From the NCBI RefSeq assembly GCF_019263705.2, contig NZ_JADQDK010000001.1:1922001-1986000 (forward strand): a stretch of 64,000 nucleotides of DNA. The letters run 5' to 3'. A program made the translations under genes and the position numbers. Shown piece by piece: positions 28,913 through 48,220 of this stretch (positions are counted from its first letter, which is position 1; every line of letters starts with the position of its first letter). The notes under the pieces are model-generated. The model did no database searches. It was not told the DNA's origin and worked only from the letters and a program-made list of their open reading frames with translations. Origin of the DNA: Pseudonocardia abyssalis. Its GTDB lineage: Bacteria > Actinomycetota > Actinomycetes > Mycobacteriales > Pseudonocardiaceae.

Positions 28913-29377
28913 TCAGCGCAGCGGGATCTCCATGCGCAGGTGCGGGTGGCCGACGTACATCTCGACGTCACCGATCCGGGTCCAGCCCAGCCGGAGGAAG
29001 AACCGCTCGTTGGGCGGCTGGATGTGGGCGATCATCCGCACCCCGCCCGCCGCACCCGCGGTGGCGACGGCGAAGCGCACCAGCGGCCCGCCGAGGCCCG
29101 ACGTGCGGTGTGCCGTGAGGACGGCGAGCCGGTCGCCCTGCCACAGCCCGCCGCCGAGCGGGAACAGGCGCACCGTGCCCGCCGGCTCGCCGTCGACGAG
29201 CCCCAGCACGTGCAGGGTGGCCGGGTCGTCGTCATGGGCGTCCCGGTCGGACTCCGGGAAGATCCCCTGCTCCGCGACGAAGACGGCGTGCCGGACGCGG
29301 TGGTGGGCGGCCAGGTCGTCGTCGTCGTCGGCGACGCGGCACGACACCTGCGCCCGCGCGCCTAGCACACGCGTCAC
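28913..29377 (-). CDS. MSMEG_0567/Sll0786-type N-acetyltransferase
   Basis: The 154-residue GNAT has RVRHAVFVAEQGIF near residue 27, the pattern of this subgroup, and an acetyl-CoA region GDRLAVLTAHRTSGLGGPLVRFAV, then AHIQPPNERFFLRLGW. This subgroup travels with radical SAM, AIR-synthase-like and nitrilase genes in the conserved Nit1C cluster, linked to nitrogen starvation and cyanide use. The acyl acceptor is unknown. It follows the radical SAM gene after 13 bases in one operon. Confidence 0.85.
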   Translation of the reverse strand: MTRVLGARAQVSCRVADDDDDLAAHHRVRHAVFVAEQGIFPESDRDAHDDDPATLHVLGLVDGEPAGTVRLFPLGGGLWQGDRLAVLTAHRTSGLGGPLVRFAVATAGAAGGVRMIAHIQPPNERFFLRLGWTRIGDVEMYVGHPHLRMEIPLR

Positions 29378-29390
29378 GCCCGGCCCCTGC

Positions 29391-30509
29391 TCATGACGCT
29401 CCGGCCGGTCGGGAGCCGATCTGCAGGAGCGGCTTGCCCCCGCTGAGCTCGTTCTGCAGGCCGTTGATCCCGGAGCAGGCCTGGCAACGCGCGCACCCGG
29501 CGACGGCGGTGTCGGCCCCGATGCCGCGCTCCTCCAGGTAGCCCGCGACCTTGCGGTAGACCCGCTCCGTGTACTCCGCGGTCGGCGGGGCGACCTCCTC
29601 CATCAGCGAACCGGCGACGGGCCGCAGCGGCACGACGAACGGGTAGACGCCGATCTCGACGGCGCGCTTGCACGCGGCGATCGTCAGGTCCGGGTCCTCA
29701 CCCATGCCGAGGATGACGTAGGTCGACACGCGCCCGGGACCCCACAGCTCCACGGCCCGCTCCCAGGTCCGGAAGTAGGTCTCGATCCCCGTCCGGAACT
29801 TGCCCGGTGCGACGTGCGCGAGCACCTTCGGGTCGAAGGACTCCACATGGATCCCCACGGCGTCGACGCCCGAGCCGTGGACCCGGTCGAGCACCGCGAG
29901 GTCGTGCGGCGGCTCGAACTGCACCTCGACGGGCAGCCCGGACGCCTCCTTGACGGCCCGACCGCACTCGGCGACGTAGTAGGCGCCGCGGTCGGGGGCC
30001 CGGGTGCTGCCGGTGGTGAGGGTGGCGTCGACGGCGCCGTCGAGGTCGCGCGCGGCGACCGCCACCTCGGCGAGCTGCGCCGGGGTCTTCTTCGCGATGG
30101 TGCGCCCGGAGTCGAGCGAGACGCCGATGCCGCAGAACCTGCACTGGTCGGAGTTGCCCCAGTAGTTGCAGGTCTGCAGGACGGTGCTGGCCAGCGAGTC
30201 GAGGTGCAGCAGCGCGATCTTCCAGTACGGCACGCCGTCGGCCGTGGTCATGTCGTAGAACCGGGGCCGGTTGCTGGTGGCGACCGAGGCGAGCTTGACG
30301 CCGTCGCGGTAGATGCCCTGGCCGTCGTCCTCGGCCTTCAGGACGTACGGGGAGGGCCCGTCGGTCTGCGTGGGCACGGTGACCGGCACGCCCTCGATCC
30401 ACAGCATCCCGGAGTCGGACGGACCCGCTCCCCCGCGCCGGGACTCGACCGGCGCCTCGACGCGGAGACCGACGCTCTGCAGGTCGATGATCAGCGAGGT
30501 GACGTCCAC
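29391..30509 (-). CDS. MSMEG_0568-family radical SAM protein
   Basis: The 372-residue protein has a cysteine cluster CNYWGNSDQCRFCGIG (C-x8-C-x2-C, near residue 120) as the probable 4Fe-4S/SAM site, then VEVQFEPPHDL and STYVILGMGEDPD, which fit a partial TIM barrel. A C-terminal CARCQAC offers further metal ligands. The family is a hallmark of the Nit1C cluster, and its reaction is unknown. I chose the GTG at 30509 because GGAG lies 7 bases upstream and a TATAGT -10 lies at 30545-30540. Upstream in-frame starts would place the promoter inside the gene. Confidence 0.87.
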   Translation of the reverse strand: MDVTSLIIDLQSVGLRVEAPVESRRGGAGPSDSGMLWIEGVPVTVPTQTDGPSPYVLKAEDDGQGIYRDGVKLASVATSNRPRFYDMTTADGVPYWKIALLHLDSLASTVLQTCNYWGNSDQCRFCGIGVSLDSGRTIAKKTPAQLAEVAVAARDLDGAVDATLTTGSTRAPDRGAYYVAECGRAVKEASGLPVEVQFEPPHDLAVLDRVHGSGVDAVGIHVESFDPKVLAHVAPGKFRTGIETYFRTWERAVELWGPGRVSTYVILGMGEDPDLTIAACKRAVEIGVYPFVVPLRPVAGSLMEEVAPPTAEYTERVYRKVAGYLEERGIGADTAVAGCARCQACSGINGLQNELSGGKPLLQIGSRPAGAS

Positions 30510-30535
30510 GCCCGTGCTCCGCCCCGTCGACGAGG

Positions 30536-30546
30536 ATTCACTATAG
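30536..30546 (-). promoter_or_regulatory. Shared promoter motif, radical SAM operon
   Basis: The sequence ATTCACTATAG matches the block's shared motif with one change. Read on the minus strand it supplies TATAGT as -10 for the radical SAM/GNAT operon. A second, weaker CTATAC lies 20 bases further upstream (30561-30566), echoing the 21-base spacing seen at 38.9 kb. Confidence 0.6.
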
Positions 30547-30589: not shown

Positions 30590-31177
30590 TCAAGAGGACT
30601 CGATCTCGGCGCGCCAGCGGTCCCGCTCCGCGACCCACGCGGCGGCATCGGCGAACCCCCGATCCCGGCCCGGCTCACCGTCGGCACCGAACTCCTGCAA
30701 CCGGTACGGCTCGGCGCCCGCGTACGGGTCGACCGCCGCCATCAGCGTGCGGCCGGTCCGCAGGTGGGTCGCGACCGTCGAGCCGCCGTAGAGCTCCTCG
30801 ATCCGCTCCGGACCCTGCAGCACCGCCCACGGCCTGCCCTCGGCCCGTGCGGTGGCGATCACCGACGCCCGACGCTCCCCCTCCCGCTCGGCGAGGACCT
30901 CCCGGGCCCGGGTCCCGCACGCGGCTCCCACCAGCAGGTCCACGGGGAGGCCCGGACGGTCGGCGGGCAGCGCGGCCAGCAGGGCCTGCGGGTCGGCCTC
31001 GACGGCGATCAGGTCGTCGAGGGAACCGGTGGTGCGACGAAGCTCACCCACGAGGGCCTGCACGGACTCCAGTCCCCTGCGGTAGCCGTCGGGATCGCTC
31101 ATCGCCACCGGGTACAGCCGGTCCTCCGCGGCCCGCCACCGGGCCTGCGCCGCTTCCTCTGCCGCTGCTCCGTGCAC
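30590..31177 (-). CDS. Unknown protein of the Nit1C-like block
   Basis: This 195-residue protein is hydrophilic and helical, with no signal or membrane segment. Recognisable stretches are ARWRAAEDRLYPVAMSDPDGY near the start, SLDDLIAVEADPQALLAALP, GAACGTRAREVLAEREGERR and a C-terminal WVAERDRWRAEIES. I do not recognise the family. The GTG is preferred over an ATG 27 bases upstream because GGAGG lies 6 bases before it and the upstream ATG would sit ahead of the expected transcription start. It shares a divergent promoter with the carbamate kinase operon, so it likely belongs to the same pathway. Confidence 0.65.
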   Translation of the reverse strand: MHGAAAEEAAQARWRAAEDRLYPVAMSDPDGYRRGLESVQALVGELRRTTGSLDDLIAVEADPQALLAALPADRPGLPVDLLVGAACGTRAREVLAEREGERRASVIATARAEGRPWAVLQGPERIEELYGGSTVATHLRTGRTLMAAVDPYAGAEPYRLQEFGADGEPGRDRGFADAAAWVAERDRWRAEIESS

Positions 31178-31202
31178 GCCGATCCTCCACTCACCCAGGT
31201 TC

Positions 31203-31214
31203 ATCCACTATAGT
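31203..31214. promoter_or_regulatory. Shared promoter motif between the 195-aa gene and carbamate kinase
   Basis: ATCCACTATAGT contains the self-complementary core ACTATAGT (31207-31214). It offers TATAGT as -10 on both strands, so one element can drive both divergent units. The ATCCAC extension is shared with the other copies and argues for a bound regulator as well. Confidence 0.65.
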
Positions 31215-31254: not shown

Positions 31255-32226
31255 ATGCCGAGGACCGCCGTCGTCGCCCTCGGGGGCAACGCCATCATCC
31301 GCGCCGGCCAGGCCGGTACGCACACCGAGCAGGCGGCCAACGCCCGATCCATGGCCCAGGCCATCTGCGAGCTCCGCGACGCCGGCTGGGTCGTCGTCGT
31401 CGTGCACGGCAACGGACCGCAGGTCGGCAACCTCGCGATCCAGCAGCACGAGGCGGCCGAGGAGGTACCCGCCCTCCCCCTGTTCGTGCAGGGGGCGATG
31501 ACCCAGGGACAGCTCGGCACGCTGCTCGTCCTCGCCCTGCACGAGGTCGTGAGCGAGGCCCCGCCCGCCGTGCTCGCGATGGTCACCCACGTCGTCGTCG
31601 ACGCCGGGGACCCGGCGTTCGGGAAGCCGACCAAGCCGATCGGACCGTTCTTCGCGAAGGACGAGGCGGAGCGGCTCGCCGCCGAGCGCGGCTGGGCGAT
31701 CGTGGAGGACTCCGGGCGCGGCTACCGCCAGATCGTCGCCTCGCCCGCCCCGCGGCGCATCCTCGAGATCGACGCGGTGCGCGCGCTCGTCGACCAGGGG
31801 ATGATCGTCGTGACCTGCGGTGGGGGCGGCGTGCCGGTCGTCGAGGAGGCGGGGGGGTACCGCGGCGTCGACGGTGTGATCGACAAGGACCTCACGGCCC
31901 GTCTCGTCGCGACCGAGCTCGGCGCCGACGCCCTCGTCCTGATCACCGACATCGACCGTGTCGCACTCGACTTCGGCACCGACCGGCAGCGCTCCATCCT
32001 CGACATCGATGTCGACGAGGCCCAGCGCCACCACGACGACGGGCAGTTCCCGCCCGGCAGCATGGGCCCCAAGATGGCCGCCGCGATCGACTTCGTGCGG
32101 CACGGCGGCCAGGCCGCGGTGATCACGGACGTCGCGCACGTGCGGGCCTCGCTGGATCCCGACCACGACGGTGAGGCCGGGACCCGGATCCTCGCCGCAC
32201 ACTCTCCGATCGGAGCCGCGCTGTGA
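31255..32226 (+). CDS. Carbamate kinase (AllK/ArcC type)
   Basis: The 323-residue protein has the amino-acid kinase features of carbamate kinase: VVALGGNAIIRAGQ at the start, VVVVHGNGPQVGNLAIQQ (about residue 50), TCGGGGVPVVEEAGGYRGVDGVIDKDLTARLVA (about 190-215) and GSMGPKMAAAIDFV near the end. In catabolism it turns carbamoyl phosphate and ADP into ATP, CO2 and ammonia. Its stop overlaps the start of the FdrA/AllF homologue, the same pairing seen in E. coli oxamate metabolism. GGAG lies 8 bases before the ATG. Confidence 0.94.
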   Translation: MPRTAVVALGGNAIIRAGQAGTHTEQAANARSMAQAICELRDAGWVVVVVHGNGPQVGNLAIQQHEAAEEVPALPLFVQGAMTQGQLGTLLVLALHEVVSEAPPAVLAMVTHVVVDAGDPAFGKPTKPIGPFFAKDEAERLAAERGWAIVEDSGRGYRQIVASPAPRRILEIDAVRALVDQGMIVVTCGGGGVPVVEEAGGYRGVDGVIDKDLTARLVATELGADALVLITDIDRVALDFGTDRQRSILDIDVDEAQRHHDDGQFPPGSMGPKMAAAIDFVRHGGQAAVITDVAHVRASLDPDHDGEAGTRILAAHSPIGAAL

Positions 32227-33767
32227 GTGCCCAGAAGGTGACGCTGTTCCGCGACACCTACCTCGACTCGGTCGTGCAGCTCTCCGGGACCCGGACGATG
32301 CGCCAGGTCGACGGCGTCGAGTGGGCGTCGGCCGCGATGGCCACCCCGGCCAACCTCGACACGCTCGGCACGGAGGGCTTCGACGCGGGCGAGTGGTCGG
32401 GTGCGGGAGCGGGCGACCTGTTCATCGCGGTGCGCGGGGAGTCCGAGGAGGCCGTGGACGCCGGCACCGAGGCCGGCCGGGAGGCGATGTTCACCCGGGC
32501 CCCGTCCGGCTCCGCGGACGGGCCGGTGCGCTCGGCCCGCACCGTCCGCGAGGCGCTGGAGCTCGCGCCGGACAGCACGGTCGCCGTCGTCTCGGTACCC
32601 GGTGACTACGCGGCGTTGGAGGCCCACCAGGCCCTCACCGCGGGGCTGCACGTGCTGCTGTTCAGCGACAACGTGTCCGTCGATGCCGAGGTCGAGCTCA
32701 AGGAGCGCGCCGCCGGACTGGGCCTGCTGGTGATGGGCCCGGGCGCGGGCACCGCGATGCTCGGGGGCACCTGCCTCGGCTTCTCCAACGTCGTGACGCC
32801 CGGCCCCGTCGCCGTCGTCGCCGCGGCGGGGACCGGCGCGCAGGAGGCGATGACGCTGCTCGACCGCTGGGGCATCGGCGTCTCCCACGTGATCGGACTC
32901 GGCGGGCGCGACATGTCCGCGGCGGTCGGGGGCATCATGGCCCGCGAGGCGCTGGCCGCCCTGCGCGCCGACGACGCCACCGAGGTCGTGCTGTTCGTCT
33001 CGAAGCCGCCGGACGCGGGAGTCGCGCGCTCGGTGCTCGCCGCCGCGGCCGGGAAGCCGGTGGTGGCCGCGCTGATCGGGCTCGAACCCGGCTCGATCGA
33101 GGTGCCCGACGGCGTCGTGCTCGCCGGATCGCTGGAGACCGGTGTCGTACGGGCACTGGAGGCGCTGGGGCGCACCGCCCCCGACCCCACCGAGGGCCTG
33201 CGCGACGCCGTGGCCGCCGCGATCGCGGACCTGCCCGCCGAGCGGACGCTGCTGCGCGGGCTCTACTCCGGCGGCACGCTCTGCTACGAGGCGCTGGTGA
33301 TCCTGGCCGGTGCGCTGGGTGAGGTGCACTCCAACACCCCCGTCGACAAGGCGCTGGGCCTGCCTGCCCCCGACGGCGCCCACACCTGCCTGGACCTGGG
33401 CGAGGAGGAGTACACGCAGGGCCGCCCGCACCCGATGATCGACCCGGAGGCGCGGCTGGAGATGCTGCGCTCCGACGGCGCCGACCCGGACGTGGCGGTG
33501 ATCGTGCTCGACGTCGTGCTCGGTCACGGCGCCCACCCGGACCCGGCCTCCGAGCTGGCCCCGGTCTGCGCCGAGATCATCGCCGGCGGTGGGCCGCGGG
33601 TCGTCGTCTACGTGCTGGGCTCCGACCAGGACCCTCAGGGACTCGAGGCCCAGCGGCGGGTGTTCACCGAGGCCGGGTGCGTGGTCACGGCCACGGCCGC
33701 CCGCGCGGCACTCGCCGCGGCGGCCATCGCCGCGCGCGACCCGGAGATCGTCGGGCGGGCGGTGTGA
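32223..33767 (+). CDS. FdrA/AllF-like subunit of oxamic-type carbamoyltransferase
   Basis: The 514-residue protein has the succinyl-CoA-synthetase-like fold of FdrA: VMGPGAGTAMLGGTCLGFSN (about residue 175), VAAAGTGAQEAMTLLDRWGIGVSHVIGLGGRDM, and a C-terminal region with LGEVHSNTPVDKALGLPAP and DPDVAVIVLDVVLGHGAHP. In E. coli FdrA (AllF) with YlbE (AllG) and YlbF (AllH) forms oxamic transcarbamylase, moving a carbamoyl group to or from phosphate. AllG and AllH homologues are encoded 6 kb away. No ureidoglycolate or allantoin gene is nearby, so the carbamoylated substrate may differ. Confidence 0.9.
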   Translation: MSAQKVTLFRDTYLDSVVQLSGTRTMRQVDGVEWASAAMATPANLDTLGTEGFDAGEWSGAGAGDLFIAVRGESEEAVDAGTEAGREAMFTRAPSGSADGPVRSARTVREALELAPDSTVAVVSVPGDYAALEAHQALTAGLHVLLFSDNVSVDAEVELKERAAGLGLLVMGPGAGTAMLGGTCLGFSNVVTPGPVAVVAAAGTGAQEAMTLLDRWGIGVSHVIGLGGRDMSAAVGGIMAREALAALRADDATEVVLFVSKPPDAGVARSVLAAAAGKPVVAALIGLEPGSIEVPDGVVLAGSLETGVVRALEALGRTAPDPTEGLRDAVAAAIADLPAERTLLRGLYSGGTLCYEALVILAGALGEVHSNTPVDKALGLPAPDGAHTCLDLGEEEYTQGRPHPMIDPEARLEMLRSDGADPDVAVIVLDVVLGHGAHPDPASELAPVCAEIIAGGGPRVVVYVLGSDQDPQGLEAQRRVFTEAGCVVTATAARAALAAAAIAARDPEIVGRAV

Positions 33768-34921
33768 GCCGGGGCGTCGCGCTGCTGACCTACTCGACGA
33801 AGCCGCGCGGCGGCGTCGTCCACACGCTGTGCCTGGCCGAGGAGCTGCACCGCCAGGGCTACCCGGTGCACGTGGTCACCCTCGGCGACCCCGACGTGGG
33901 CTTCTTCCGCCCCGTCGACGTGCCGCACACGATCGTCCCCGTGCGCGAGCGCGCGGGCACGCTCGACGAGCGGGTGTTCGCCGCGATCGACGCCCTCACC
34001 GAGGGCCTGCGCGCGATCGCGGGCGACTTCGACATCCTGCACCCGCAGGACTGCATCTCCGCGCGCGCCGCCGTGACGGTCCGCGACGAGGGCGCCCCGG
34101 TCACCGTCGTGCGCACCGTGCACCACGTCGACGACTTCACCACGCAGGCCCTCATCGACTGCCAGGCCAAGGCGATCCACCAGCCCGACCGCGTGCTCGT
34201 CGTCAGCGAGCAGTGGCGCGGGATCCTGCGCGACTCCTACGGAGTGACGCCGGAGATCGTGCCCAACGGCGTCGACACCGCCCGGTTCCCGCCGGTCACC
34301 GCCGAGCAGCGGGCCGCGCTGCGCGAGCGGGTCGGGGCGCGGGAGAGGTTCCTGCTGCTCGCCGTCGGTGGTGTGGAGCCCCGCAAGGGCACCCACCACC
34401 TCTTCGAGGCGCTCGGCTCACTGGCCCGGGACCTGGACCGGCGCCCGGTCCTCGCCGTCGTGGGCGGGCACTCCTTCCAGGACTACACCGCCTACCGCGA
34501 CGCCGCGCTGGAGTCGCTGCCCTCGCTCGGGCTGGAGCTGGGCGTCGACGTCGTGCAGCTGGGCACGGTCGACGAGGCCGAGCTGGCCGGCTGGTACTCC
34601 GCGGCCGACGCGCTCGCGTTCCCGTCGGTCAAGGAGGGCTGGGGGCTCGTCGTGCTGGAGGCGCTGAGCATGGGCCTGCCCGTCGTCGCGAGCGACCTGC
34701 CGGTGTTCGGGGAGTACCTCACCGACGGCGTCGACGCCCTGCTCCCCGCCGTCGGCGACAGCCCGGCGCTGGCCGCCGCACTGGAGCGGATCATCACCGA
34801 CCACGCCCTGCGTGACCGGCTGCGGACCGCCGGGCACACGGTGGCCGGGCGCTACACATGGGCCGCGAGCGCGCAGCGCCACCGCGACGTCTACGCCGAC
34901 ATCCGAGCCGCCCGCCGCTGA
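33764..34921 (+). CDS. MSMEG_0565-like glycosyltransferase (GT4 type)
   Basis: The 385-residue protein has a GT-B fold. The N-terminus is GVALLTYSTKPRGGVVHTLCLAEEL and a central strand is VPNGVDTARFPP. The donor site follows: LLLAVGGVEPRKGTHHLFEAL, then FPSVKEGWGLVVLEALSMGLPVVASDLPVFGEYL. This subgroup belongs to the Nit1C cluster (MSMEG_0565). Its GTG overlaps the FdrA stop by 4 bases, so carbamate kinase, FdrA and this enzyme form one operon. Donor and acceptor are unknown. A strong hairpin follows. Confidence 0.87.
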   Translation: MSRGVALLTYSTKPRGGVVHTLCLAEELHRQGYPVHVVTLGDPDVGFFRPVDVPHTIVPVRERAGTLDERVFAAIDALTEGLRAIAGDFDILHPQDCISARAAVTVRDEGAPVTVVRTVHHVDDFTTQALIDCQAKAIHQPDRVLVVSEQWRGILRDSYGVTPEIVPNGVDTARFPPVTAEQRAALRERVGARERFLLLAVGGVEPRKGTHHLFEALGSLARDLDRRPVLAVVGGHSFQDYTAYRDAALESLPSLGLELGVDVVQLGTVDEAELAGWYSAADALAFPSVKEGWGLVVLEALSMGLPVVASDLPVFGEYLTDGVDALLPAVGDSPALAAALERIITDHALRDRLRTAGHTVAGRYTWAASAQRHRDVYADIRAARR

Positions 34922-35035: not shown

Positions 35036-35413
35036 TCAGTGCCCGTGGCCGTGGCCGTGCCCGTGGTCGTCGGCGTGCTCGTGGTCGTGGCCGGCCGGGC
35101 GCTCCGCGAGCTCGCCCGCCCGGTCCGTGACCTCACCGGCCGCCAGCAGCCCGCGCTCCTGCACGACCGACTCCAGGGCCTGGAGCCAGCAGCGGTAGTA
35201 GCTGTAGCACTCCCCCGCCGGGTGCGAGCGCTCCCAGTCGGCGATCCGGGCGACGAGATGGTCGCGGAAGTCGTCCCAGGTGAACGAGCCGGCGTCGTGC
35301 AGCGTGACCGCGAGCCCGAACGCCCGGCTCTCCCACGGCTCGGCGAACACCAGCTCGCCGTTGTCGCGCGGCGGGGCCGCGGGACCGTCGATCTCCAGGA
35401 CCGGCGTCGTCAC
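35036..35413 (-). CDS. Nitrile hydratase activator/accessory protein with His-rich tail
   Basis: The 125-residue protein resembles the nitrile hydratase beta N-terminal fold, as cobalt-type activators do: [35 protein letters not shown], then [16 protein letters not shown]. The last 20 residues are a His/Asp/Gly tail (about nine His), a plausible cobalt-holding segment. Activators load metal into the alpha subunit. Its GTG overlaps the alpha stop by 4 bases. The His tail is not general for the family as I know it. Confidence 0.88.
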
Positions 35414-35991
35414 CGCGCCACACCGACCATCATGTCGCGCGTGACGTGCCCGACCAGCTCCTCCTCCGAGGCGTCCTCGGTACCGGCGGGGCGCAGCGGC
35501 AGGACGAGGTAGCGCACCTCGCTGCTGGAGTCCCAGACCTTCACCTCGATGTCGTCGGTGAGCGTCAGACCCATCTCGGCCAGCACGGTGCGCGGCTCGC
35601 GCACGATCCGCGCCCGGTAGGCGGGGTCCTTGTACCAGCCCGGCGGCAGGCCGAGGACCGGCCACGGGTAGCACGAGCACAGCGTGCAGGTGACGACGTG
35701 GTGCAGCGTCCCGGTGTTCTCCAGCACGACGATGTGCTCGCCCTGCGGCCCGGCGAACCCGAGCTCCTTGATCGCCGCGGTGCCCTCGGCGAGCAGCCGC
35801 GCCCTGTACTCCGGGTCGGTCCACGCCTTCGCGACGACCTTGGCACCGTTGAGCGGGCCCACGTCGTTCTCGTAGGTGCTGATGAACTTGTTCATCACGG
35901 CCGGGTCGACGAGCCCACGCTCGGTGAGGAGCTGCTCGAGCGCCTCGGTGCGCAGCGCCGGGGACAGGCGGTCGGGGTTGATGGTCGTCAT
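35410..35991 (-). CDS. Nitrile hydratase alpha subunit (cobalt type)
   Basis: The 193-residue protein carries the metal-binding claw [23 protein letters not shown] (around residue 105). The CTLCSC form, with Thr at the second position, marks the cobalt enzymes, while iron enzymes have CSLCSC. The two later cysteines are normally oxidised to sulfenic and sulfinic acids. With the beta subunit it hydrates a nitrile to an amide. No amidase is found beside it, which is unusual for a nitrile-catabolic operon. The order beta-alpha-activator is that of many cobalt enzymes. Confidence 0.95.
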
Positions 35992-36733: not shown

Positions 36734-37219
36734 TCAGAGCGTCCAGGTCTGCAGGACCAGGGCGCCCTCACGGCGGGCCGTGAGCGTCGCGTCGAGCACG
36801 TCGAGCGGGTGCATCGGCTTGACGCCCTCGATGAGGTCGGTCTCCCGCATGCCGTACAGGGCGGCCATGGCGAAGCGGCAGGCGTAGATCTTGCCGCCTT
36901 CCTTCATGAAGGTCTTGAGCTGGTTGTTGAAGTTCATGTGGCCGGGGAAGGCCTCCGCACCGACGGTGGGGAAACCGCGGGTGGCCGACGCCATGAGGAC
37001 GCCGGGACCGTAGAGCACCATGCTGGTGTCGAAGCCCTTCCGGTTGATCCGGGTGGCGGTGAGCATGTTGACGAAGCCGACCGAGCCCTCGTAGGGCACG
37101 GTGTGCATGAAGATGTAGGCCTTCTCGCCCTCGTTGGCCTGGATGTCGTCGAAGAGCTTCTCGTCGTAGTCGACGATCGCGTCGCCCTCGTTGAGGCGCT
37201 CGCCGCTGATCTGAGCCAC
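36734..37219 (-). CDS. MSMEG_0572/Sll0783-family nitrogen-starvation protein
   Basis: The 161-residue protein contains [42 protein letters not shown] and [32 protein letters not shown]. The pattern is that of the MSMEG_0572/Sll0783 family, which resembles a DsrE-like fold. Sll0783 is a strongly nitrogen-regulated cyanobacterial gene of the Nit1C cluster. The biochemical role is unknown. Cys in ACRFAM could be catalytic, as in DsrE-type sulfur carriers; this is inference. AAGGAG lies 7 bases before the GTG start. Confidence 0.82.
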
Positions 37220-40295: not shown

Positions 40296-40296
40296 C

Positions 40297-41688: not shown

Positions 41689-43199
41689 CAGTTCTCCTTG
41701 TGGTCCACGACCGCACGGGCGGTCTCGAGCAGGGCGTCCTCGACGCGGTCGAACCCCGCGGTGCGGGCGGCGGCCTCGGCGTCGAGACCGTCGAGCTTCG
41801 TGCGCAGTGCGGCGATCATCGCGGCGACGGCGTCGGGGGCGGCACCGCCCTGGGCCGCCCGCGACAGCACGATCCGCCACGGGTCGAGCACCTCCGACAG
41901 GTCCGCCCCGGCGAGGCCCCAGTCGTGGCCGGTGTGCTCGCGCGCGGCCTCGTCGATCATGTCGCCGGTGATCCCGCCGCCCGGGATGCCCGCCCTGCTC
42001 GCGGCGCGGACCGTCCGCCCGACCACGACGTAGGCGGTGCGGTAGTCGACACCGACCCGCTGCACGAGGTGCTCGGCGAGGTCGGTGGCCTGCGTGTAGC
42101 CGCGGGCGAGCTCCTCGGCCATCCGGTCGGCGTTGACGCGCAGCGTCCGCACGACGCCGGTGAACAGCCGGGTGATCCGCAGCGTGAGGTCCAGGGCCCG
42201 GGGCACCTCGCCGTAGGCGAAGATCAGGTTGTCGCTGCGGGCCGACGGGCTCTTCGTCACCGCGAGGAAGCCCGAGAGCCGCCCGATGATCACCCCGGAC
42301 GCGCCGCGGACGATGGCCAGCGCGTAGGGGTTGCGCTTGTTCGGCATGAGGACCGAGCTGCGGGTGAACGAGTCGTCGAGGTCGACGAAGTCGAACTCGC
42401 TGGAGGAGAAGATCTCCAGGTCCTCGGCGAGCTTGGAGAAGTTCGACAGCAGGCTCGACGCCGTCGCCAGCACGTGGATCAGGCCGTCGACCTGCCACAT
42501 CGCGTCGCGGGTGTGCTCGATGACGCCCTCGAACCCGAGCGAGGCGGCGATGAAGGAGCGGTCCTCCAGCAGCCGCGTGCCGTTGACGCAGCCGGCCCCG
42601 CCGGGTGAGCAGTCGACCCAGTCGAGCTCGTCGAGCAGGCGGCGGGCGTCGCGGACGCAGGAGTAGACGAACGAGAGCAGGTAGTGCCCGAACGTCGACG
42701 GCTGGGCCTGCTGCAGGTAGGTCTGGTCCGGCAGCAGGGTGTGGGCGTGCTCCTCGGCGCGGTCGCACGCCACGCGCGCGAACGCGACGGCCTCGGCGAC
42801 GAGCTCGGCGAGCTGGCGGCGCAGGTGCAGGCGCAGCGCGATCCGGGTGGCCTCGCGGCGCGGGCGCCCGGCGTGCAGCCAGCCCGCGGCGTCGCCGATG
42901 CGGCCGACGAAGTAGTGCTCGCGGGAGTTGTAGGCCTCGCCGAACTCCGGGTCGTAGGGGAAGTCCTCGGCGGGGATCTCGTGGACGTCGAGCAGCAGGG
43001 CGAGCAGCTCCCGCTCGGTGTCGGGGGCGACGATGCCGCGACGGGCGAGGTCGAGCACGTGGGAGATGTCGGCGAGGTTGAGGCCGCGGTGCAGGAACGG
43101 GGCGTCGGCGTTCTCCAGGGCGAACCCGGACTCGACCAGCTCGCGGGCCGGTCCGCCCTGCGGCGGGCCGCCCTCGCGGGTGCGGCGGGGGGTGGTCAC
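41688..43199 (-). CDS. Aspartase/fumarase-superfamily lyase (argininosuccinate-lyase-like), putative CoM synthesis
   Basis: The 503-residue protein has the superfamily signature SSVLMPNKRNPYALAIVRG (about residue 285) and an earlier QTYLQQAQPSTFGHYLLSF segment holding the family's general-acid region. It resembles argininosuccinate lyase. In this operon, with a ComA homologue and a second superfamily member, it corresponds best to the Xcb aspartase/fumarase enzymes of bacterial coenzyme M synthesis, which act after phosphosulfolactate. An amino-acid lyase role cannot be excluded. Its GTG overlaps the fusion gene's stop by 4 bases. Confidence 0.78.
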   Translation of the reverse strand: MTTPRRTREGGPPQGGPARELVESGFALENADAPFLHRGLNLADISHVLDLARRGIVAPDTERELLALLLDVHEIPAEDFPYDPEFGEAYNSREHYFVGRIGDAAGWLHAGRPRREATRIALRLHLRRQLAELVAEAVAFARVACDRAEEHAHTLLPDQTYLQQAQPSTFGHYLLSFVYSCVRDARRLLDELDWVDCSPGGAGCVNGTRLLEDRSFIAASLGFEGVIEHTRDAMWQVDGLIHVLATASSLLSNFSKLAEDLEIFSSSEFDFVDLDDSFTRSSVLMPNKRNPYALAIVRGASGVIIGRLSGFLAVTKSPSARSDNLIFAYGEVPRALDLTLRITRLFTGVVRTLRVNADRMAEELARGYTQATDLAEHLVQRVGVDYRTAYVVVGRTVRAASRAGIPGGGITGDMIDEAAREHTGHDWGLAGADLSEVLDPWRIVLSRAAQGGAAPDAVAAMIAALRTKLDGLDAEAAARTAGFDRVEDALLETARAVVDHKEN

Positions 43200-45490
43200 T
43201 GCGGGGCCTCCACGTCGGGGCTGGCGGGTAGGTGGGTGAGGGCGGGGAGCACGCCGCCGGTGTGCCAGTACACGACCGGGCCGGCGGCGGGGAGGCGGTC
43301 GAGCAGCGCCGAGAACGCCTTCGCGCCGTAGGAGTCGTCGAGCAGCAGGCCCTCCGTGTGCAGGGCGAGGCGGGCGGCGTCGCGGTCGCGCGCCGACGCG
43401 ACGCCGAACCCGGCGCCGCGGGCGTCGACCCACTCCGGGGCGGCGGGGACGGGCCCGCCCAGCAGCGCGGCGCAGTCCGCGGCCAGCCCGGCGACGTGGG
43501 CGGCGATGTCGGGCGGCGGGCGGCTCACCGACACCCCGAGCACCGGCACGTCGACGCCGGCCGCGGCGAACCCGGCCGTCAGCCCGGCGATGCTGCCGCC
43601 CGAGCCGACCGACAGCACGACGAGCGCGGGGGTCAGCTCCGCGAGCAGCTCGGCCGCCGCGGCGGCGAACCCCACGGCCCCGAGCCCGGTCGATCCCCCG
43701 CGCGGCACGGCGTAGGGGCGGCGGCCCGCGGCGCGCAGCTCGGCGGCGCGGTCGGCGACGTCCCGGTCGAGCCGGCTGCGGTCCGCGCCGGTGTACCGGA
43801 GCACGGCCCCGGACGCGACGGCGAGCGCCAGGTTGGGGGCAAGGGCGCCGCCCGGGGCGCCGGCGACGAGCAGCTCGCAGTCCAGCCCCGCGACGCGGGC
43901 GGCGAGCGCGGCGGCGGGGGCGAAGTTGGAGCCCGCCCCTCCCCCGGTGACCAGCACGTCGGCGCCCTCGGCGAGCGCGGCGGCGACCAGGAACTCCAGC
44001 GGGCGCGTCTTGTTGCCGGCGACGCCGAACCCGGCGAGGTCGTCGCGCTTGACCCACACCGGCCCGCAGCCGAGCGCGGTCTCCAGCCGGCGGGCGCGGT
44101 GCAGCGGGGTCGGGAACACGCCCAGCGGGAACCGGTCGTGCGCGGGAGCAGTGGCCGGGGCAACGGTTTCCGCGCACGAGCGTGCCAGCACCCCGTCGAC
44201 CATCCCCGCCGCCGCGTCGACCGCGGGCCCGGTAGCCCAGGCCCGGACCTGCGCCTCGTCGGCGACACCGCGCGCCACGAGCCCGGCCACCAGGTCCTCG
44301 CCGGACTCGCGCAGCACCTCGTGCAGCACCTGCTGGGCGCGGTGCTTCCCGAGCACCCCGGACAGCCCGGCCAGCACCCGCTCCGAGGTGAGCCCGCCGC
44401 CGTAGCGCTGCGCGTTCGCGGCCATCGCCGCCGTGTTCACCTCCAGCCCGTCGAGCAGGCGCAGCGCCAGCGAGGTCGCGGTACCGGTCAGCTGGCAGAC
44501 CTCGGGCAGCGCGATCCACTCCGCCTTCCACGACCGCCCGTCGCGCTCGTGCCCGCCGACCATCCCCTCCAGCAGCACCGCGGCCGAGGACCGGGCCAGG
44601 CGGGCGAGGGTGTCGAGGTGCTCGCTGCCCTCGGGGTTGCGCTTGTGCGGCATCGTGATCGAGCTGACGGCCCCCGGCGGTGCGGCCTCGGCCAGCTCGC
44701 CGATCTCGGGACGCGCCAGCTCGTAGACCTCGGTCCCGATCCGCGCCAGCGTGCCGCAGACCCCGGCGAGCACCCCGCCGAACTCCGCGACGCGGTCGCG
44801 CGCGGTGAGCCAGGAGATCCCGGGGTCGCCGAGCCCGAGCTCCGCGCAGAACCGGGCCCGCAGCTCCGGGCCGTCGGCGCCGAAGAACGCGAGCGCGCCG
44901 ACGGCCCCGCCGAGCTGCCCGACCGACCAGCGCGGTGCGCCCTCGCGCAGCCGGTCGAGGTGGCGACGCACCTCGTCGGCCCAGGACGCGACCTTGAAGC
45001 CGAACGTGATCGGCGCCCCGGGCTGGCCGTGGGTGCGCCCGGCCATGACGGTGCCGCGGTGCTCCCGCGCGAGCTCCAGCAACCGCTCCTCGACGGCGAG
45101 CAGGTCGCGCCGCACGATCGCACCGACGTCGCGCATGACGATCCCGAACCAGGTGTCGGTGACGTCCTGCACCGTCGCCCCGACGTAGACGTGCTCGCGG
45201 GCGTGCTCGGGCAGCACGCGCAGCAGTCCCCGGATCAGGCCGAGCGTCGAGTGCGAGGTGGCGCGGGTCTGCTCGGCGACGTACCCCAGGTCCAGCGCGC
45301 CGATGCCGACGTCCGACAGCGCCGCGGCCGCCGAGTCGGGGACGATGCCCAGCGACGCCTGCGCGCGGGCGAGCGCGGCGAGGACGTCGAGCCAGGTCTG
45401 CAGCATCGCGCGCTCGTCGAACACCGCCGTCAGCTCGGGGGTGCCCCAGAGGTGGGCGTAGAGGGTGGAGCTGCTCAGACGGGTGCCCAC
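43196..45490 (-). CDS. Fusion of aspartase/fumarase-superfamily lyase and PLP-dependent beta-family enzyme
   Basis: The 764-residue protein joins two enzymes. Residues 1-440 are an adenylosuccinate-lyase/cycloisomerase-like lyase: AGRTHGQPGAPITFGFK, and SSITMPHKRNPEGSEHL as the catalytic loop. A short linker with CAETVAPATAPAH leads to a fold-type II PLP domain (residues about 450-764) like D-cysteine desulfhydrase or ACC deaminase: PLHRARRLE, VKRDDLAGFGVAGNKTRPLEFLV with the Schiff-base Lys, GGGAGSNFAPAAALAA and SVGSGGSIAGLTAG. Bacterial CoM synthesis uses members of just these two families. The fusion probably channels a sulfonated intermediate to a thiolation step. The GTG start overlaps the upstream gene by 16 bases. 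Confidence 0.85.
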   Translation of the reverse strand: MGTRLSSSTLYAHLWGTPELTAVFDERAMLQTWLDVLAALARAQASLGIVPDSAAAALSDVGIGALDLGYVAEQTRATSHSTLGLIRGLLRVLPEHAREHVYVGATVQDVTDTWFGIVMRDVGAIVRRDLLAVEERLLELAREHRGTVMAGRTHGQPGAPITFGFKVASWADEVRRHLDRLREGAPRWSVGQLGGAVGALAFFGADGPELRARFCAELGLGDPGISWLTARDRVAEFGGVLAGVCGTLARIGTEVYELARPEIGELAEAAPPGAVSSITMPHKRNPEGSEHLDTLARLARSSAAVLLEGMVGGHERDGRSWKAEWIALPEVCQLTGTATSLALRLLDGLEVNTAAMAANAQRYGGGLTSERVLAGLSGVLGKHRAQQVLHEVLRESGEDLVAGLVARGVADEAQVRAWATGPAVDAAAGMVDGVLARSCAETVAPATAPAHDRFPLGVFPTPLHRARRLETALGCGPVWVKRDDLAGFGVAGNKTRPLEFLVAAALAEGADVLVTGGGAGSNFAPAAALAARVAGLDCELLVAGAPGGALAPNLALAVASGAVLRYTGADRSRLDRDVADRAAELRAAGRRPYAVPRGGSTGLGAVGFAAAAAELLAELTPALVVLSVGSGGSIAGLTAGFAAAGVDVPVLGVSVSRPPPDIAAHVAGLAADCAALLGGPVPAAPEWVDARGAGFGVASARDRDAARLALHTEGLLLDDSYGAKAFSALLDRLPAAGPVVYWHTGGVLPALTHLPASPDVEAPQ
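44166..44179. repeat. 14-base match to the terB hairpin inside the fusion linker
   Basis: GTTTCCGCGCACGA here is identical to the right arm of the hairpin at 16526-16567. It codes for part of the linker between the two enzyme domains. It may be the relic of an intergenic element from a time when the domains were separate genes. Confidence 0.5.
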
Positions 45491-46413
45491 ACCGGCTCCT
45501 GCTGCGCGGCGAGGGTGCGCAGCGCCTCGCGGACGTGCTCCAGCGACGAGCCCCACGGCACCGTCGCCCAGCCGGGACCGGAATCGGTGTGCTCCTCCTG
45601 CATGCAGCACTTCGTGAGCAGCACCGGCGGGCGCGGGCCGGGCGCGCGCTTCGGGCAGAAGTCCACGACGGGTACCTCGGTGCCGTAGAACCACTCGTGG
45701 ATCTGTTGCGAGCGGGTGCAGCCGAGCAGGGTCCAGTCGGCCTGCGGCGGGTGCTCGTCGAGGTAGGAGACCTGCGCACCCTCCACGTCGCTCCCCGAAC
45801 CGCGGCACGGCAGCAGGTAGTGCTGCGCCGGGTGCTCCGCGGCCAGCGCGCCGAGATCGGTCAGCTCGCTGACCAGCTCGATCGGCGGCAGGTCCTCGGT
45901 GATCGCGAGGAGGCGCTGCGCCTGGTCGAAGAGCTTCGCGGGCTCCGGGGGCACGACCTCGCGCACGACGATCCGCAGCGGGCGGGCGTCGAGGATGAAG
46001 TTGACGTGCTCGTAGCGGCCCTGCACGACGACCGCGCGCGCCCCGGGCACCGTGGCCGCGGCCGCGGCCAGCGCCGACGGGATCGCGGTGTCGACCTCCG
46101 GGTCGTGCACCCAGGCGCACTCGTCCGGGCCGGCGAGCAGCGTCGTCCCGACGATCGGCGCGAACAGCGGGCCGTCCGGGTCGTCGGGCGGGTTCGGCAC
46201 CTTCTCCACGTGCAGCACCGCGAGGCCCGCCGCCGAGCGCGCGACGACGAATCGGGTGCGGCGGTAGGCGTCGCGGCCGACGAAGTACGCGCGCAGCGAG
46301 GCCGCGTCGAGGCCGACGTCGGGCGGCAGGGCCGCCACGGACACACCCCGGTAGCGACCCGGGACGACGTTGGGCCCGGTCGGGACGGCCGGCACGGGGG
46401 CGGGTGCACTCAC
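45475..46413 (-). CDS. Unknown protein between ComA and the lyase-PLP fusion
   Basis: The 312-residue protein is soluble. It begins VPTGPNVVPGRYRGVSVAALPPD, has a middle AVVVQGRYEHVNFILDARPLRIVVREVVPPEPAKL, and a cysteine-containing C-terminal half: HYLLPCRGSG, LLGCTRSQQIHEWFYG, VDFCPKR and LLTKCCMQEEH. The spacing of five late cysteines could bind a metal or carry a redox thiol. I do not recognise the family with confidence. Overlaps on both sides (4 and 16 bases) place it firmly in the pathway, where it could supply the decarboxylation or reduction step that bacterial CoM synthesis requires. Confidence 0.7.
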   Translation of the reverse strand: MSAPAPVPAVPTGPNVVPGRYRGVSVAALPPDVGLDAASLRAYFVGRDAYRRTRFVVARSAAGLAVLHVEKVPNPPDDPDGPLFAPIVGTTLLAGPDECAWVHDPEVDTAIPSALAAAAATVPGARAVVVQGRYEHVNFILDARPLRIVVREVVPPEPAKLFDQAQRLLAITEDLPPIELVSELTDLGALAAEHPAQHYLLPCRGSGSDVEGAQVSYLDEHPPQADWTLLGCTRSQQIHEWFYGTEVPVVDFCPKRAPGPRPPVLLTKCCMQEEHTDSGPGWATVPWGSSLEHVREALRTLAAQQEPVWAPV

Positions 46414-47195
46414 GCCGGCCCCGTCCCGACCGCGTCCTCCTGCCGGGCGGCGGCGGTGTCCGACCGCAGGCCCAGGCGCAGCGTCTCGACCGACAGGACC
46501 TCCGAGAGCGCCACGTTGCCGAGGTTGACGTCGGCCCCGAAACGGCGGATGAACCAGGCCTGCTGCGAGGATCGGGGCGCCTCGAACACCACCCGCTCGA
46601 CGCCGACGGCCGCCGCGACGGCCTCCACGACGTCGGGCCGGACACGCCCCGACGAGTCGAACGTGCCGACGGTTCCGCTCTGCCGCCCCTCGGTGACGAC
46701 CAGGCTCGCACCCGCGTCGAGGTCGGACAGCGCCTCGGCGGGCCAGGTGCGGGCCGCGAGCTGCTCCCCCGGCGACTTCGCTCCGACCTCGGCGAGCACG
46801 GTGAACCGGTCCGCGGCCGAGCCGATCAGCGCGCGCTTCTGGGGCACCGTCATGTCGACGGTGCCCCGGGACACCTCGACCATCGCGAAACCCGTGTCGT
46901 ACGCCCAGGCCAGGCATTCCCGGGCGCGGCCCTGCGCGAACGCGATCTCCAGCAGGGTGCCGCCCAGGCAGGCCGGGACGCCCTGGGCGGCGAGCAGCGC
47001 GAGCTTGGCGTCGAGTGCGGCGTCGACGTACGCGGTGCCCCAGCCGACCTTCCAGATGTCGACGTGCGCCGCGGCCGAGGACAGCAGGTCGGCGGCGGCG
47101 CCGGGCGGGATGCCGGGGTCGAGCACGTGGGTCAGCCCGGTGCTGCGGGGCTTGGCCGCTCGCGCGGGGAGATCCAGGAACGACGGGTCGACCAC
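46410..47195 (-). CDS. comA: Phosphosulfolactate synthase (ComA homologue)
   Basis: The 261-residue protein aligns by eye along its length with ComA: KPRSTGLTHVLDPGI at the start, VDIWKVGWGTAYV, ACLGGTLLEIAFAQG, FAMVEVSRGTVDM, FTVLAEVGAK, then VVTEGRQSG and the C-terminal VVFEAPRSSQQAWFIRRFG, VNLGNV, VLSVETLRLGLRSDT. ComA adds sulfite to phosphoenolpyruvate to make phosphosulfolactate, the first step toward coenzyme M. The GTG at 47195 is preferred because TATCAT lies 6 bases upstream, giving a leaderless mRNA. It is the first gene of a six-gene operon. Confidence 0.92.
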   Translation of the reverse strand: MVDPSFLDLPARAAKPRSTGLTHVLDPGIPPGAAADLLSSAAAHVDIWKVGWGTAYVDAALDAKLALLAAQGVPACLGGTLLEIAFAQGRARECLAWAYDTGFAMVEVSRGTVDMTVPQKRALIGSAADRFTVLAEVGAKSPGEQLAARTWPAEALSDLDAGASLVVTEGRQSGTVGTFDSSGRVRPDVVEAVAAAVGVERVVFEAPRSSQQAWFIRRFGADVNLGNVALSEVLSVETLRLGLRSDTAAARQEDAVGTGPA

Positions 47196-47210
47196 GAGGA
47201 GATGATAGGT

Positions 47211-47238
47211 CACATAGTGGAGAGACACCTACTATAGG
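47211..47238. promoter_or_regulatory. Shared motifs between comA and the AIR-synthase-like gene
   Basis: ACATAGTGGAG (47212-47222; reverse complement near CTCCACTATGT) and ACCTACTATAG (47227-47237) are two opposed copies of the block's motif. TACTAT (47230-47235) is 7 bases before the GTG of the plus-strand gene. The whole divergent region is only 47 bases long. Confidence 0.65.
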
Positions 47239-47242
47239 AGAC

Positions 47243-48220
47243 GTGCCTCGTACTGATCAGGACTCGCTCGACGCTCTCGTCGCCGTGCTGCGCTCCCATC
47301 CCGGGATGCGGGGCAAGGCCGCGATCGGCCTGGTGTCGGAGGTGCTGGGCGGCAGTGACATCCACAACGGCGACTGGCTGGGCGGGCCGGGCGACGACGG
47401 CGCGGTCGTCGAGGCGTTCGGCGGGTCGGTCGTGGCGTGCGGCGAGGCGATGTGGCCGCCGTTCGTGCGCGCCGACCCGTTCGGGGCCGGGTTCGCCGCG
47501 GTGCTCACCAACGTTAACGACCTCGCCGCGATGGGTGCGGTCCCGCTCGGGATCGTCGACACGATCGTCGCGGACGCGGGGACGGCTCGGCGCGCGCTGG
47601 AGGGCATGCGCAGGGCGTGCGAGCTGCTGCGCGTCCCGGTCATCGGCGGGCACCTCACCGAGCACGACGGGGAGCCGGCGATCTCGGCGTTCGGCGTCGG
47701 CGCGGCGACGCACCCGCTGTCGGTGACGCGCATGGACGTCGGGCAGGAGCTGGTGGCGGCCTACGCGCTCGACGGGACGATGCGTCCGGACTTCCCGTTC
47801 TTCCCCGCCTTCGAACAGCGCGGCTCACGGTGCGCCGACGACGTCCGACTGCTCGCCGAGGTCGCGGCGGCCGGGTCGTGCGTGGCCGCGAAGGACATCA
47901 GCATGGCCGGGTTCGCGGGGTCGCTCGCGATGCTGCTGGAACAGGGGCGGTTCGGCGTCACCGTCGATCTGGCCGCTCTGCCGGTCCCCGACGGCGTCGA
48001 TCTCGCCGCCTGGCTCACGTGCTTCCCGAGCTTCGGGTTCCTGCTCTGCGCCCCGGACGGCCGCGCCGCCGAGCTGACCGCGGCGTTCGACGCGCGGGGC
48101 CTGCACGCCGCCGTGCTCGGCACCCTCGACGACACCGGGCACCTCGCCCTGAGACTCGGTGACGCCACCGCGACGGTGTTCGACGTCGGGCGCGAGCCGG
48201 TGACGGGGCTGGCGCGGTGA
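47243..48220 (+). CDS. Sll0787-type AIR-synthase-like protein of the Nit1C set
   Basis: The 325-residue protein belongs to the PurM/HypE/SelD ATP-binding fold: GDDGAVVEAFGGSVVACGEAMWPPFV, VLTNVNDLAAMGAVPLGIVDTIV (the PurM-like metal/ATP segment), VIGGHLTEHD and AAKDISMAGFAGSLAMLLE. The sll0787-like subgroup is a standard member of the Nit1C cluster, and its product is unknown. The GTG is most likely leaderless. It is divergent from comA and ends 4 bases before a convergent small gene. Confidence 0.85.
   Translation: MPRTDQDSLDALVAVLRSHPGMRGKAAIGLVSEVLGGSDIHNGDWLGGPGDDGAVVEAFGGSVVACGEAMWPPFVRADPFGAGFAAVLTNVNDLAAMGAVPLGIVDTIVADAGTARRALEGMRRACELLRVPVIGGHLTEHDGEPAISAFGVGAATHPLSVTRMDVGQELVAAYALDGTMRPDFPFFPAFEQRGSRCADDVRLLAEVAAAGSCVAAKDISMAGFAGSLAMLLEQGRFGVTVDLAALPVPDGVDLAAWLTCFPSFGFLLCAPDGRAAELTAAFDARGLHAAVLGTLDDTGHLALRLGDATATVFDVGREPVTGLAR

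Follow-up and report, generated by a model that had tools for sequence, protein, structure and literature searches.

The genes for coenzyme M (CoM) synthesis in bacteria have a described setting: CoM serves alkene and epoxide metabolism, and the xcb genes, with a CoA-disulfide reductase, adjoin alkene genes (PMC8727900). What, then, is the function of such genes in a 64000-nucleotide stretch of the Pseudonocardia abyssalis genome (contig NZ_JADQDK010000001.1, positions 1922001–1986000; hereafter the window, whose numbering is used throughout), where, between 28913 and 49052, homologues of all five bacterial CoM (xcb) genes share a block with a Co-type nitrile hydratase and its activator, homologues of AllF, AllG and AllH, a carbamate kinase and a CoA-disulfide-reductase-like flavoprotein? 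The block is a conserved, co-regulated, non-alkene CoM module with Nit1C marker genes and a carbamoyl-phosphate outlet, an observation that now stands more strongly than when first stated, and the joint CoM, Nit1C and carbamoyl gene set of many actinobacteria points to an undescribed use of CoM. We consider it quite plausible, if still short of probable, that the block is a module dedicated to nitrogen salvage under common regulation, a Nit1C/gpr variant in which CoM takes a direct part.

Gene content of the block

Genes were called by codon-position GC (guanine plus cytosine) content, with starts inferred, and families were named by NCBIfam and Pfam. One operon runs from ComA/XcbB through XcbA and an XcbD–XcbE fusion to XcbC, the end of which abuts AllG, followed by AllH. 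Further operons hold carbamate kinase, AllF and a glycosyltransferase; nitrile hydratase and its activator; MSMEG_0572; a small conserved protein (unk88) and the flavoprotein; an XRE-cupin regulator; radical SAM and GNAT; and an AIR-synthase-like (AIRS) gene. AllG and AllF thus lie in different operons. A preliminary description had reported the comA operon, the Co nitrile hydratase, AllF/AllG/AllH, carbamate kinase and the flavoprotein (with an SPCGIPY sequence) as one motif-linked block, with no amidase beside the nitrile hydratase and no allantoin genes by AllFGH. NCBIfam and Pfam matches confirmed this gene content, and the scan of 20 block genes revealed neither an amidase nor an allantoin gene. 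To this gene list we add five Nit1C marker genes and an OsmC-like gene.

CoM genes outside an alkene context

The ComA gene at 46410–47213 is the only ComA match in the genome; with TIGR03849 it scores 230 bits, under the cut-off of 280. XcbA exceeds its NF052538 cut-off. XcbD and XcbE, which are separate genes in relatives such as locus L026, form a single 764-aa frame in the window.

The Pfam model of XcbA found the protein in ten of 396 genomes of the phylum, the host included. MSMEG_0572 is present in nine of these ten, compared with 19 of the 396 overall (hypergeometric p = 1.5e-12), and AllG in eight, compared with 49 overall (p = 1.2e-6), both values being uncorrected for kinship. Nine of the ten carry this non-alkene cluster type; the tenth match (G070) lies on a 3.4-kb contig. 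XcbA, XcbD, XcbC, AllF and carbamate kinase were found in all eight neighbours other than G070 and AllG in seven, and in the six neighbours whose contigs exceed 20 kb there are, in addition, MSMEG_0572, the flavoprotein, radical SAM, GNAT and the glycosyltransferase. These homologues are mostly 45–70% identical, the operon order is shuffled, and AllH is missing from some of the neighbour stretches.

A search of species genomes for XcbA that took no account of neighbouring genes gave 95 loci, the best 80 of which were taken; these are mostly from Actinomycetota, with a few from Chloroflexi, Acidobacteria and Dormibacterota bins. Four were set aside as alkene/epoxide type: L086 and L105, the only two with an EaCoMT-like gene, L097, typed by its dehydrogenase and CoA-transferase genes, and L098, typed solely by its lack of partner genes. 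The resulting ratio of 76 to 4 is biased, as the query was an alignment largely of cluster-type XcbA; the count over 396 genomes used the Pfam model. Within the DNA fetched for the 76 non-alkene loci, at least one of nine partners is present in 74, at least three in 63 and at least five in 41, and the two loci with none are both 3-kb contigs. The gene arrangement described for alkene degraders (PMC8727900) agrees with that of the contrast loci L086 and L097.

Whole-genome searches for AllG, radical SAM and EaCoMT covered the genomes of 49 of the 80 loci together with the host (G000), 50 in all, or 48 after L086 and L105 were set aside. The AllG family and the MSMEG_0568 radical SAM were found in all 48, and an EaCoMT-like gene (E 1e-40) in none, the host included. 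Both EaCoMT-bearing genomes lack AllG, and one has a radical SAM of the MSMEG_0568 family. An ordinary alkene CoM operon was rejected for lack of an EaCoMT-like gene. The preliminary description had proposed a search for co-occurrence of comA, nitrile hydratase and fdrA–DUF1116–DUF2877 outside alkene loci, and this, run in part, gave a positive answer.

Pseudonocardia dioxanivorans CB1190 retains most of the module although its parts are scattered over distant loci. The xcb genes lie near 1.70–1.72 Mb together with MSMEG_0572, GNAT and nitrile hydratase; the radical SAM gene is found at 5.47 Mb, and a third place, near 6.64 Mb, holds AllG, AllF and carbamate kinase. No AIRS or AllH was seen in the fetched stretches. 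Beside the unlinked AllG of this species there is also a nitrile-hydratase-alpha fragment (42 aa aligned; L145:13180-13656) with an activator gene.

Nit1C marker genes

Nit1C, a cluster linked to cyanide and to nitrogen starvation, was described in 2005 as comprising a nitrilase, a radical SAM protein, an acetyltransferase, an AIR synthase, a flavoprotein and two proteins of unknown function (PMC1199592). It is required by Pseudomonas for growth on, and assimilation of, cyanide (PMC11049912). In Mycobacterium smegmatis, MSMEG_0565–0572 form the gpr operon, associated with peroxide resistance and a raised NADPH/NADP ratio (PMC6039565), and a Synechocystis sll0783 mutant is short of reducing equivalents (PMC3901256).

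The five marker genes of the block, which amount to most of Nit1C, belong to the MSMEG_0565, 0567, 0568, 0572 and sll0787 families, the last scoring below its cut-off; MSMEG_0572 (NitB), radical SAM (NitD) and GNAT (NitE) all exceed theirs (TIGR04044, TIGR04043 and TIGR04045). None of the 20 block genes scanned matched a nitrilase (CN-hydrolase) family, and the six CN-hydrolases elsewhere in the genome all lie outside the window. Neither the MSMEG_0569 flavoprotein (NitH, TIGR04046) nor MSMEG_0570 (NitG, TIGR04042) was among the matches listed for block genes, and both models match in classic Nit1C clusters. For the SPCGIPY flavoprotein the NitH check drew on the best 25 of 48 families, the top one scoring 254 bits, compared with a TIGR04046 cut-off of 498. 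The MSMEG_0572 protein has one cysteine that is invariant across ten aligned sequences, and its profile found no match in the PDB.

A shared motif at likely promoters

The window holds four copies of the motif YACTATAS (30539, 31206, 38958 and 47230) compared with an expected 0.12, each in an intergenic position that is likely to be a promoter. These are also its only four occurrences in the 6.3-Mb genome, in which the reversed control occurs 17 times, so that the 'motif-linked' character of the block is borne out; as the motif was derived from the window, the count there is not independent, whereas its absence elsewhere is. Across the 80 loci we found 34 sites in 22 loci, compared with 0–10 for six controls (the reversed motif and five permutations), and 29 sites no more than 250 bp upstream of cluster genes, compared with 0–9 for the same controls, loci with fewer than six gene calls being skipped in this comparison. 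A single-base model would expect 28 sites over the 80 loci, which is why the control patterns matter. It is the number of sites and not their intergenic placement that is special, as the control patterns are mostly intergenic too. The genome of P. dioxanivorans has eight matches; three of them, at two places, immediately precede the radical SAM and arcC–allF genes, which are unlinked there. The XRE-cupin protein (39094..39615) is a candidate for the regulator that binds the motif. Homologues of the BTAD regulator at the left edge of the block were found by tblastn in 13 of the 80 loci at 40–72% identity.

Nitrile hydratase and an alternative amidohydrolase

The alpha and beta subunits, the activator and the CxLCSC motif of a nitrile hydratase are all present, and the nearest PDB chains are of the Co type. 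A thiocyanate hydrolase was rejected as the identity of this enzyme: the gamma-subunit model TIGR03887 gave 191 bits against a cut-off of 291, and the alpha chain fits nitrile hydratase. In a tree of alpha subunits, a chosen sample with two exact duplicates dropped, 19 cluster rows (the window and 18 others, counting those associated with L032, L095 and L104) form one clade apart from 13 nitrile hydratases located elsewhere in the sampled genomes, with support of 95/98, and the 13 include two from the host genome itself.

Many relatives of the module have, in place of nitrile hydratase, a 286-aa Amidohydro_2 protein, for which no match was found in the PDB. Searched anywhere in the 48 non-alkene xcb genomes, nitrile hydratase alone is present in 24, the amidohydrolase alone in 16, both in seven and neither in one, giving nitrile hydratase in 31 and either enzyme in 47. 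The single genome with neither is a draft bin, the XcbD of which is near-identical with one from an amidohydrolase-bearing genome. This swapping gives a Fisher p value of 1.7e-6 with kinship ignored. Strict mutual exclusion was rejected, given the seven genomes with both enzymes, which in L044 and L047 lie within one 20-kb locus. That two unrelated hydrolytic enzymes tend to replace each other suggests one shared kind of product: either could yield a carbamoyl group, which AllFGH would consume.

An amidohydrolase 48–50% identical was also seen beside MSMEG_0572 in two classic actinobacterial Nit1C clusters with nitrilases (L117:10103-10924 and L120:9982-10809). It may be a further Nit1C partner, one that goes unmentioned in the Nit1C literature consulted.

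AllFGH, the flavoprotein and the AIRS protein

All three subunit families, AllF, AllG and AllH, are present in the block. AllG scored 218 bits in the phylum search, whereas 31 of the 52 phylum AllG matches score 288–327. The E. coli AllFGH enzyme interconverts oxalurate, an N-carbamoyl compound, and carbamoyl phosphate (PMC11326118). In the window, AllF also matches succinyl-CoA synthetase alpha chains. The chemistry of succinyl-CoA synthetase is a thioester phosphorolysis, and this likeness would suit a thiol-bound carbamoyl group.

The PDB chains nearest to the SPCGIPY flavoprotein include the NADH oxidase NoxA-3 and CoA-persulfide and CoA-disulfide reductases. An OsmC gene is present in 54 of the 80 related loci. 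A structural model of the AIRS protein (mean predicted local distance difference test score, pLDDT, 89.6) has HypE, SelD, PurL and ThiL as its nearest folds by Foldseek, with HypE at the top by small margins. HypE is also nearest in a single-sequence PDB search, whereas a profile search places PurL and ThiL above it. The 30 C-terminal residues contain no cysteine in 45 of the 46 relatives. As the profile search favours PurL, an identity as HypE was not adopted and the protein was left as a member of the superfamily that includes HypE.

Coordinates and neighbouring genes

The features of the block are collected in Table 1.

Table 1 Position, strand and supporting matches of the features of the block
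Feature	Position	Strand	Supporting match
BTAD/AAA transcriptional regulator, left edge	25753..28905	+	Pfam BTAD, AAA_16
GNAT, MSMEG_0567/Sll0786 family, NitE-like	28913..29368	-	TIGR04045 99.7 bits, cut-off 68
Radical SAM, MSMEG_0568 family, NitD-like	29391..30509	-	TIGR04043 384.8 bits, cut-off 304
Motif site CACTATAG upstream of radical SAM–GNAT genes	30539..30546	+	
unk204, conserved protein, no family match	30590..31204	-	Partners at 28–53% identity in related loci
Motif site CACTATAG between unk204 and arcC	31206..31213	+	
Carbamate kinase	31255..32226	+	NF009007 301 bits, cut-off 266; TIGR00746 348.7 bits, just below cut-off 358
AllF/FdrA homologue	32223..33767	+	NF004760 411.6 bits, cut-off 433; E. 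coli FdrA structure 3dmy 257 bits
MSMEG_0565 family glycosyltransferase	33764..34921	+	TIGR04047 365.5 bits, cut-off 260
Nitrile hydratase activator, His-rich tail	35036..35413	-	TIGR03889 77 bits, cut-off 46
Nitrile hydratase alpha, Co-type CTLCSC	35410..35991	-	TIGR01323 289 bits, cut-off 250
Nitrile hydratase beta	35988..36659	-	TIGR03888 169 bits, cut-off 152
MSMEG_0572/Sll0783 family DsrE-like protein, NitB-like	36734..37219	-	TIGR04044 239.5 bits, cut-off 110
unk88, small conserved protein	37260..37526	-	At least 40% identity in 48 of 80 related loci
CoA-disulfide-reductase-like flavoprotein, single-Cys SPCGIPY	37529..38863	-	TIGR03385 254 bits, cut-off 579
Motif site CACTATAC between flavoprotein and XRE-cupin gene	38958..38965	+	
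XRE-cupin regulator, start uncertain	39094..39615	+	HTH_3 and Cupin_2
AllH homologue (DUF2877)	39531..40295	-	PF11392 61.7 bits
AllG homologue (DUF1116)	40297..41688	-	PF06545 216 bits
XcbC-like lyase	41688..43199	-	NF052535 420 bits, cut-off 575
XcbD–XcbE fusion	43196..45490	-	NF052536 563 bits, cut-off 600; NF052537 216 bits, cut-off 450
XcbA family (DUF7714)	45475..46344	-	NF052538 299 bits, cut-off 150; PF24830 291 bits
ComA/XcbB phosphosulfolactate synthase	46410..47213	-	PF02679 261 bits
Motif site TACTATAG between comA and AIRS gene	47230..47237	+	
AIR-synthase-like protein, sll0787 family, NitF-like	47306..48220	+	TIGR04049 239 bits, cut-off 321
OsmC-like protein, two cysteines, start uncertain	about 48603..49052	+	PF02566 66 bits

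Directly adjoining the block on the right are genes at 48957–51594 on the minus strand that resemble larC, larB and larE, genes of nickel-pincer cofactor synthesis. LarB, LarC and LarE occur near xcb in 18, 16 and 15 of the 80 related loci respectively, mainly in Pseudonocardia, and a nickel-pincer enzyme might be a further part of the system. To the left of the block, and outside the module, lie genes for a TerD-domain protein (22630–24837, plus strand) and an Hsp70-type protein (20362–22044, minus strand). By eye, hairpins can be read in two intergenic stretches (34940–35010 and 51770–51830); their arms are related and contain AGTGAAGCCACC/AGTAAAGCCACC, and they may represent a recurring terminator or a repeat element.

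How the module might work

The gene set, its conservation, the shared motif and the lack of an EaCoMT-like gene are read from the sequences; we infer which way the pathway flows, on what substrate it acts and what part CoM plays. In the nitrogen-salvage reading, a C–N unit at the level of cyanide or a nitrile would be bound to a carrier and hydrated to the carbamoyl level by the Co nitrile hydratase, or by the metal amidohydrolase in many relatives; phosphorolysis by AllFGH would then give carbamoyl phosphate and the free carrier, and carbamate kinase would split the carbamoyl phosphate to ammonia, CO2 and ATP. CoM would be either the carrier, first S-cyano and then S-carbamoyl, or the thiol reductant of the Nit1C core, and the SPCGIPY flavoprotein would return oxidised CoM to CoM.

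The most specific form of this proposal, in which CoM is a free, recyclable carrier of C1 nitrogen, is one that we regard as doubtful. Here oxidised CoM and cyanide would give S-cyano-CoM, then S-carbamoyl-CoM and finally carbamoyl phosphate and CoM-SH, with the disulfide recycled by the flavoprotein; where the amidohydrolase is used, S-carbamoyl-CoM might instead be made from a related S-amidino or imine form. On the gene content, the chain from S-cyano through S-carbamoyl to carbamoyl phosphate is possible and would be chemically coherent. A precedent is hydrogenase maturation, in which HypF and HypE link S-carbamoyl and S-cyano thiols to carbamoyl phosphate. By this analogy, CoM as the carrier would amount to hydrogenase-style cyanide chemistry reversed on a small thiol and widespread in Actinomycetota, which we likewise think unlikely.

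Several observations weigh against a salvage module with a direct part for CoM. In the window the scores of XcbC, XcbD and XcbE are all below their cut-offs, as are those of AllF with NF004760 and of the AIRS protein with TIGR04049 (Table 1); scanned alike, the EaCoMT-bearing locus L086 had XcbD above its cut-off (659/600 bits) and XcbE (297/450) and XcbC (408/575) also below. By tblastn, XcbE was not found in five of the eight neighbour tiles (G189, G092, G124, G167 and G253), nor ComA in two that reach past XcbA (G189 and G092). Of the 80 related loci, 58 have no exact match to the motif, and none occurs in the xcb DNA fetched for P. dioxanivorans. A tree-aware test of the hydratase swap found four to five pairs changing in opposite directions and none in the same direction, a weak result (p = 0.0625). 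The activity of AllFGH, as far as its source describes it, was demonstrated only on an N-carbamoyl substrate (PMC11326118), and the Nit1C phenotypes given for M. smegmatis are NADPH and peroxide resistance, not a nitrogen substrate (PMC6039565). Finally, three genomes of one actinobacterial family (G078, G143 and G329; loci L108, L109 and L110) have AllG, carbamate kinase, the amidohydrolase, radical SAM, GNAT, AIRS and MSMEG_0572, but 20 kb of fetched DNA contained no xcb gene, and a genome-wide search no XcbA. The position of the CoM genes is taken in these loci by an aminotransferase-fold enzyme (scanned from G078) and, in G143, the only one scanned for this, an Orn/DAP-type decarboxylase and an SsuD-like luciferase-family monooxygenase. 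CoM is thus inessential to the carbamoyl end (AllFGH), and either these loci use another carrier or the carrier is not CoM.

One serious rival is an N-carbamoyl route, which is possible, if on the unlikely side. In this route the hydratase or amidohydrolase would make a ureido compound, from a cyanamide or from a cyclic imine or ureide, the nitrogen of which AllFGH and carbamate kinase would salvage as in allantoin breakdown, with CoM acting at another step. The retention of AllG, carbamate kinase and the amidohydrolase in loci without CoM genes is in keeping with this, as is the action of AllFGH on oxalurate (PMC11326118), and a classic actinobacterial Nit1C cluster has two CN-hydrolases, one of which finds its best match in N-carbamoylputrescine amidase, though at 107 bits it stays far under the cut-off of 410. 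However, with AllG and the Nit1C radical SAM present in all 48 xcb genomes without an EaCoMT-like gene, CoM hardly looks incidental, and none of the block genes scanned was recognised as ureido-forming or as belonging to allantoin metabolism.

The M. smegmatis link to NADPH and peroxide (PMC6039565) would be fitted at least equally well by a thiol redox role for CoM. In this second serious rival the block would be a redox module in which CoM, the flavoprotein, OsmC and the DsrE-like MSMEG_0572 give low-molecular-weight thiol protection under nitrogen starvation or cyanide, the nitrogen enzymes being merely co-regulated. The sll0783 mutant (PMC3901256) points the same way, as do the closeness of the flavoprotein to CoA-disulfide and CoA-persulfide reductases and the presence of a homologue flanking xcb in the epoxide-type loci L086 and L097 too. 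We judge this unlikely; it leaves unexplained why AllFGH, carbamate kinase and the hydratase are retained jointly with xcb.

Much less probable still is a flow in the reverse direction, with carbamate kinase and AllFGH loading a carbamoyl group on to CoM and the AIRS protein dehydrating it with ATP to S-cyano-CoM, a soluble cyanide donor. HypE carries out such a dehydration on its own cysteine; the AIRS protein, nearest to HypE in the single-sequence and Foldseek searches and with no cysteine near the C terminus of 45 of the 46 relatives, would have to rely on a thiol from elsewhere. Against this, PurL and ThiL outscore HypE by profile, the Foldseek margins are small, and any S-cyano-CoM made would be lost to the regulon's own nitrile hydratase. 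That the genes are chance neighbours, or an ordinary alkene/epoxide CoM operon of the kind described for bacteria (PMC8727900), is hardly credible given the conserved gene set, the shared motif and an EaCoMT-like gene in 0 of 48 genomes.

The CoM-dependent cyanide and nitrogen-salvage pathway of the preliminary description has thus fared unevenly. In its favour are a regulon-like unit kept across families, an independently found cyanide link of Nit1C (PMC11049912), the AllFGH and carbamate kinase end, the lack of an EaCoMT-like gene in the genome and the separate nitrile hydratase clade; weakened are its placing of CoM as the cyanide or carbamoyl carrier, which we infer only, and its reliance on nitrile hydratase, present in 31 of 48 genomes; related AllG loci show no CoM gene in the 20 kb fetched. 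If the salvage reading is true, Nit1C, described in 2005 and with its chemistry unsettled, gains a thiol cofactor and a defined end in carbamoyl phosphate, ammonia and ATP, AllFGH gains a substrate other than oxalurate, nitrile hydratase acquires a physiological partner, and the Nit1C substrate becomes testable in cultured Pseudonocardia. In the literature consulted, bacterial CoM is tied only to alkene/epoxide metabolism, and this cluster type is another context for it. Among the open-licence papers listed in literature searches, none describes the cluster as judged by its title and the opening of its abstract; a prior description elsewhere is possible.

Comparison with known systems

The block shares with the xcb loci of alkene/epoxide degraders a single operon for homologues of XcbB, XcbA, XcbD, XcbE and XcbC, the last three scoring below their cut-offs in the window, and a CoA-disulfide-reductase homologue beside it, and differs in having no EaCoMT-like gene or alkene context, a fused XcbD–XcbE and other partner genes. 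All four families of the E. coli AllFGH–AllK system (oxamic transcarbamylase and carbamate kinase) are present, AllF aligning well to FdrA (3dmy), whereas no allantoin genes are seen in the block and AllG and AllF are in separate operons. The nitrile hydratase has the alpha and beta subunits, activator and CTLCSC of other Co-type enzymes, and differs in its own clade tied to the cluster, with no amidase seen alongside. HypF and HypE, with an AIRS-fold enzyme, set a precedent for chemistry that links carbamoyl phosphate to S-carbamoyl and S-cyano groups, although their thiol is protein-bound and the direction is opposite to that of the proposed pathway. With Nit1C/gpr (nitBCDEFGH; MSMEG_0565–0572; sll0783–0787) the block has the MSMEG_0572, radical SAM, GNAT and glycosyltransferase genes and, with a score below its cut-off, the AIRS gene in common, without the nitrilase, the MSMEG_0569 flavoprotein and MSMEG_0570. 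To these it adds xcb, the CoA-disulfide-reductase-like flavoprotein, OsmC, AllFGH, carbamate kinase and nitrile hydratase, or the amidohydrolase in relatives, together with a candidate regulator and a motif of its own.

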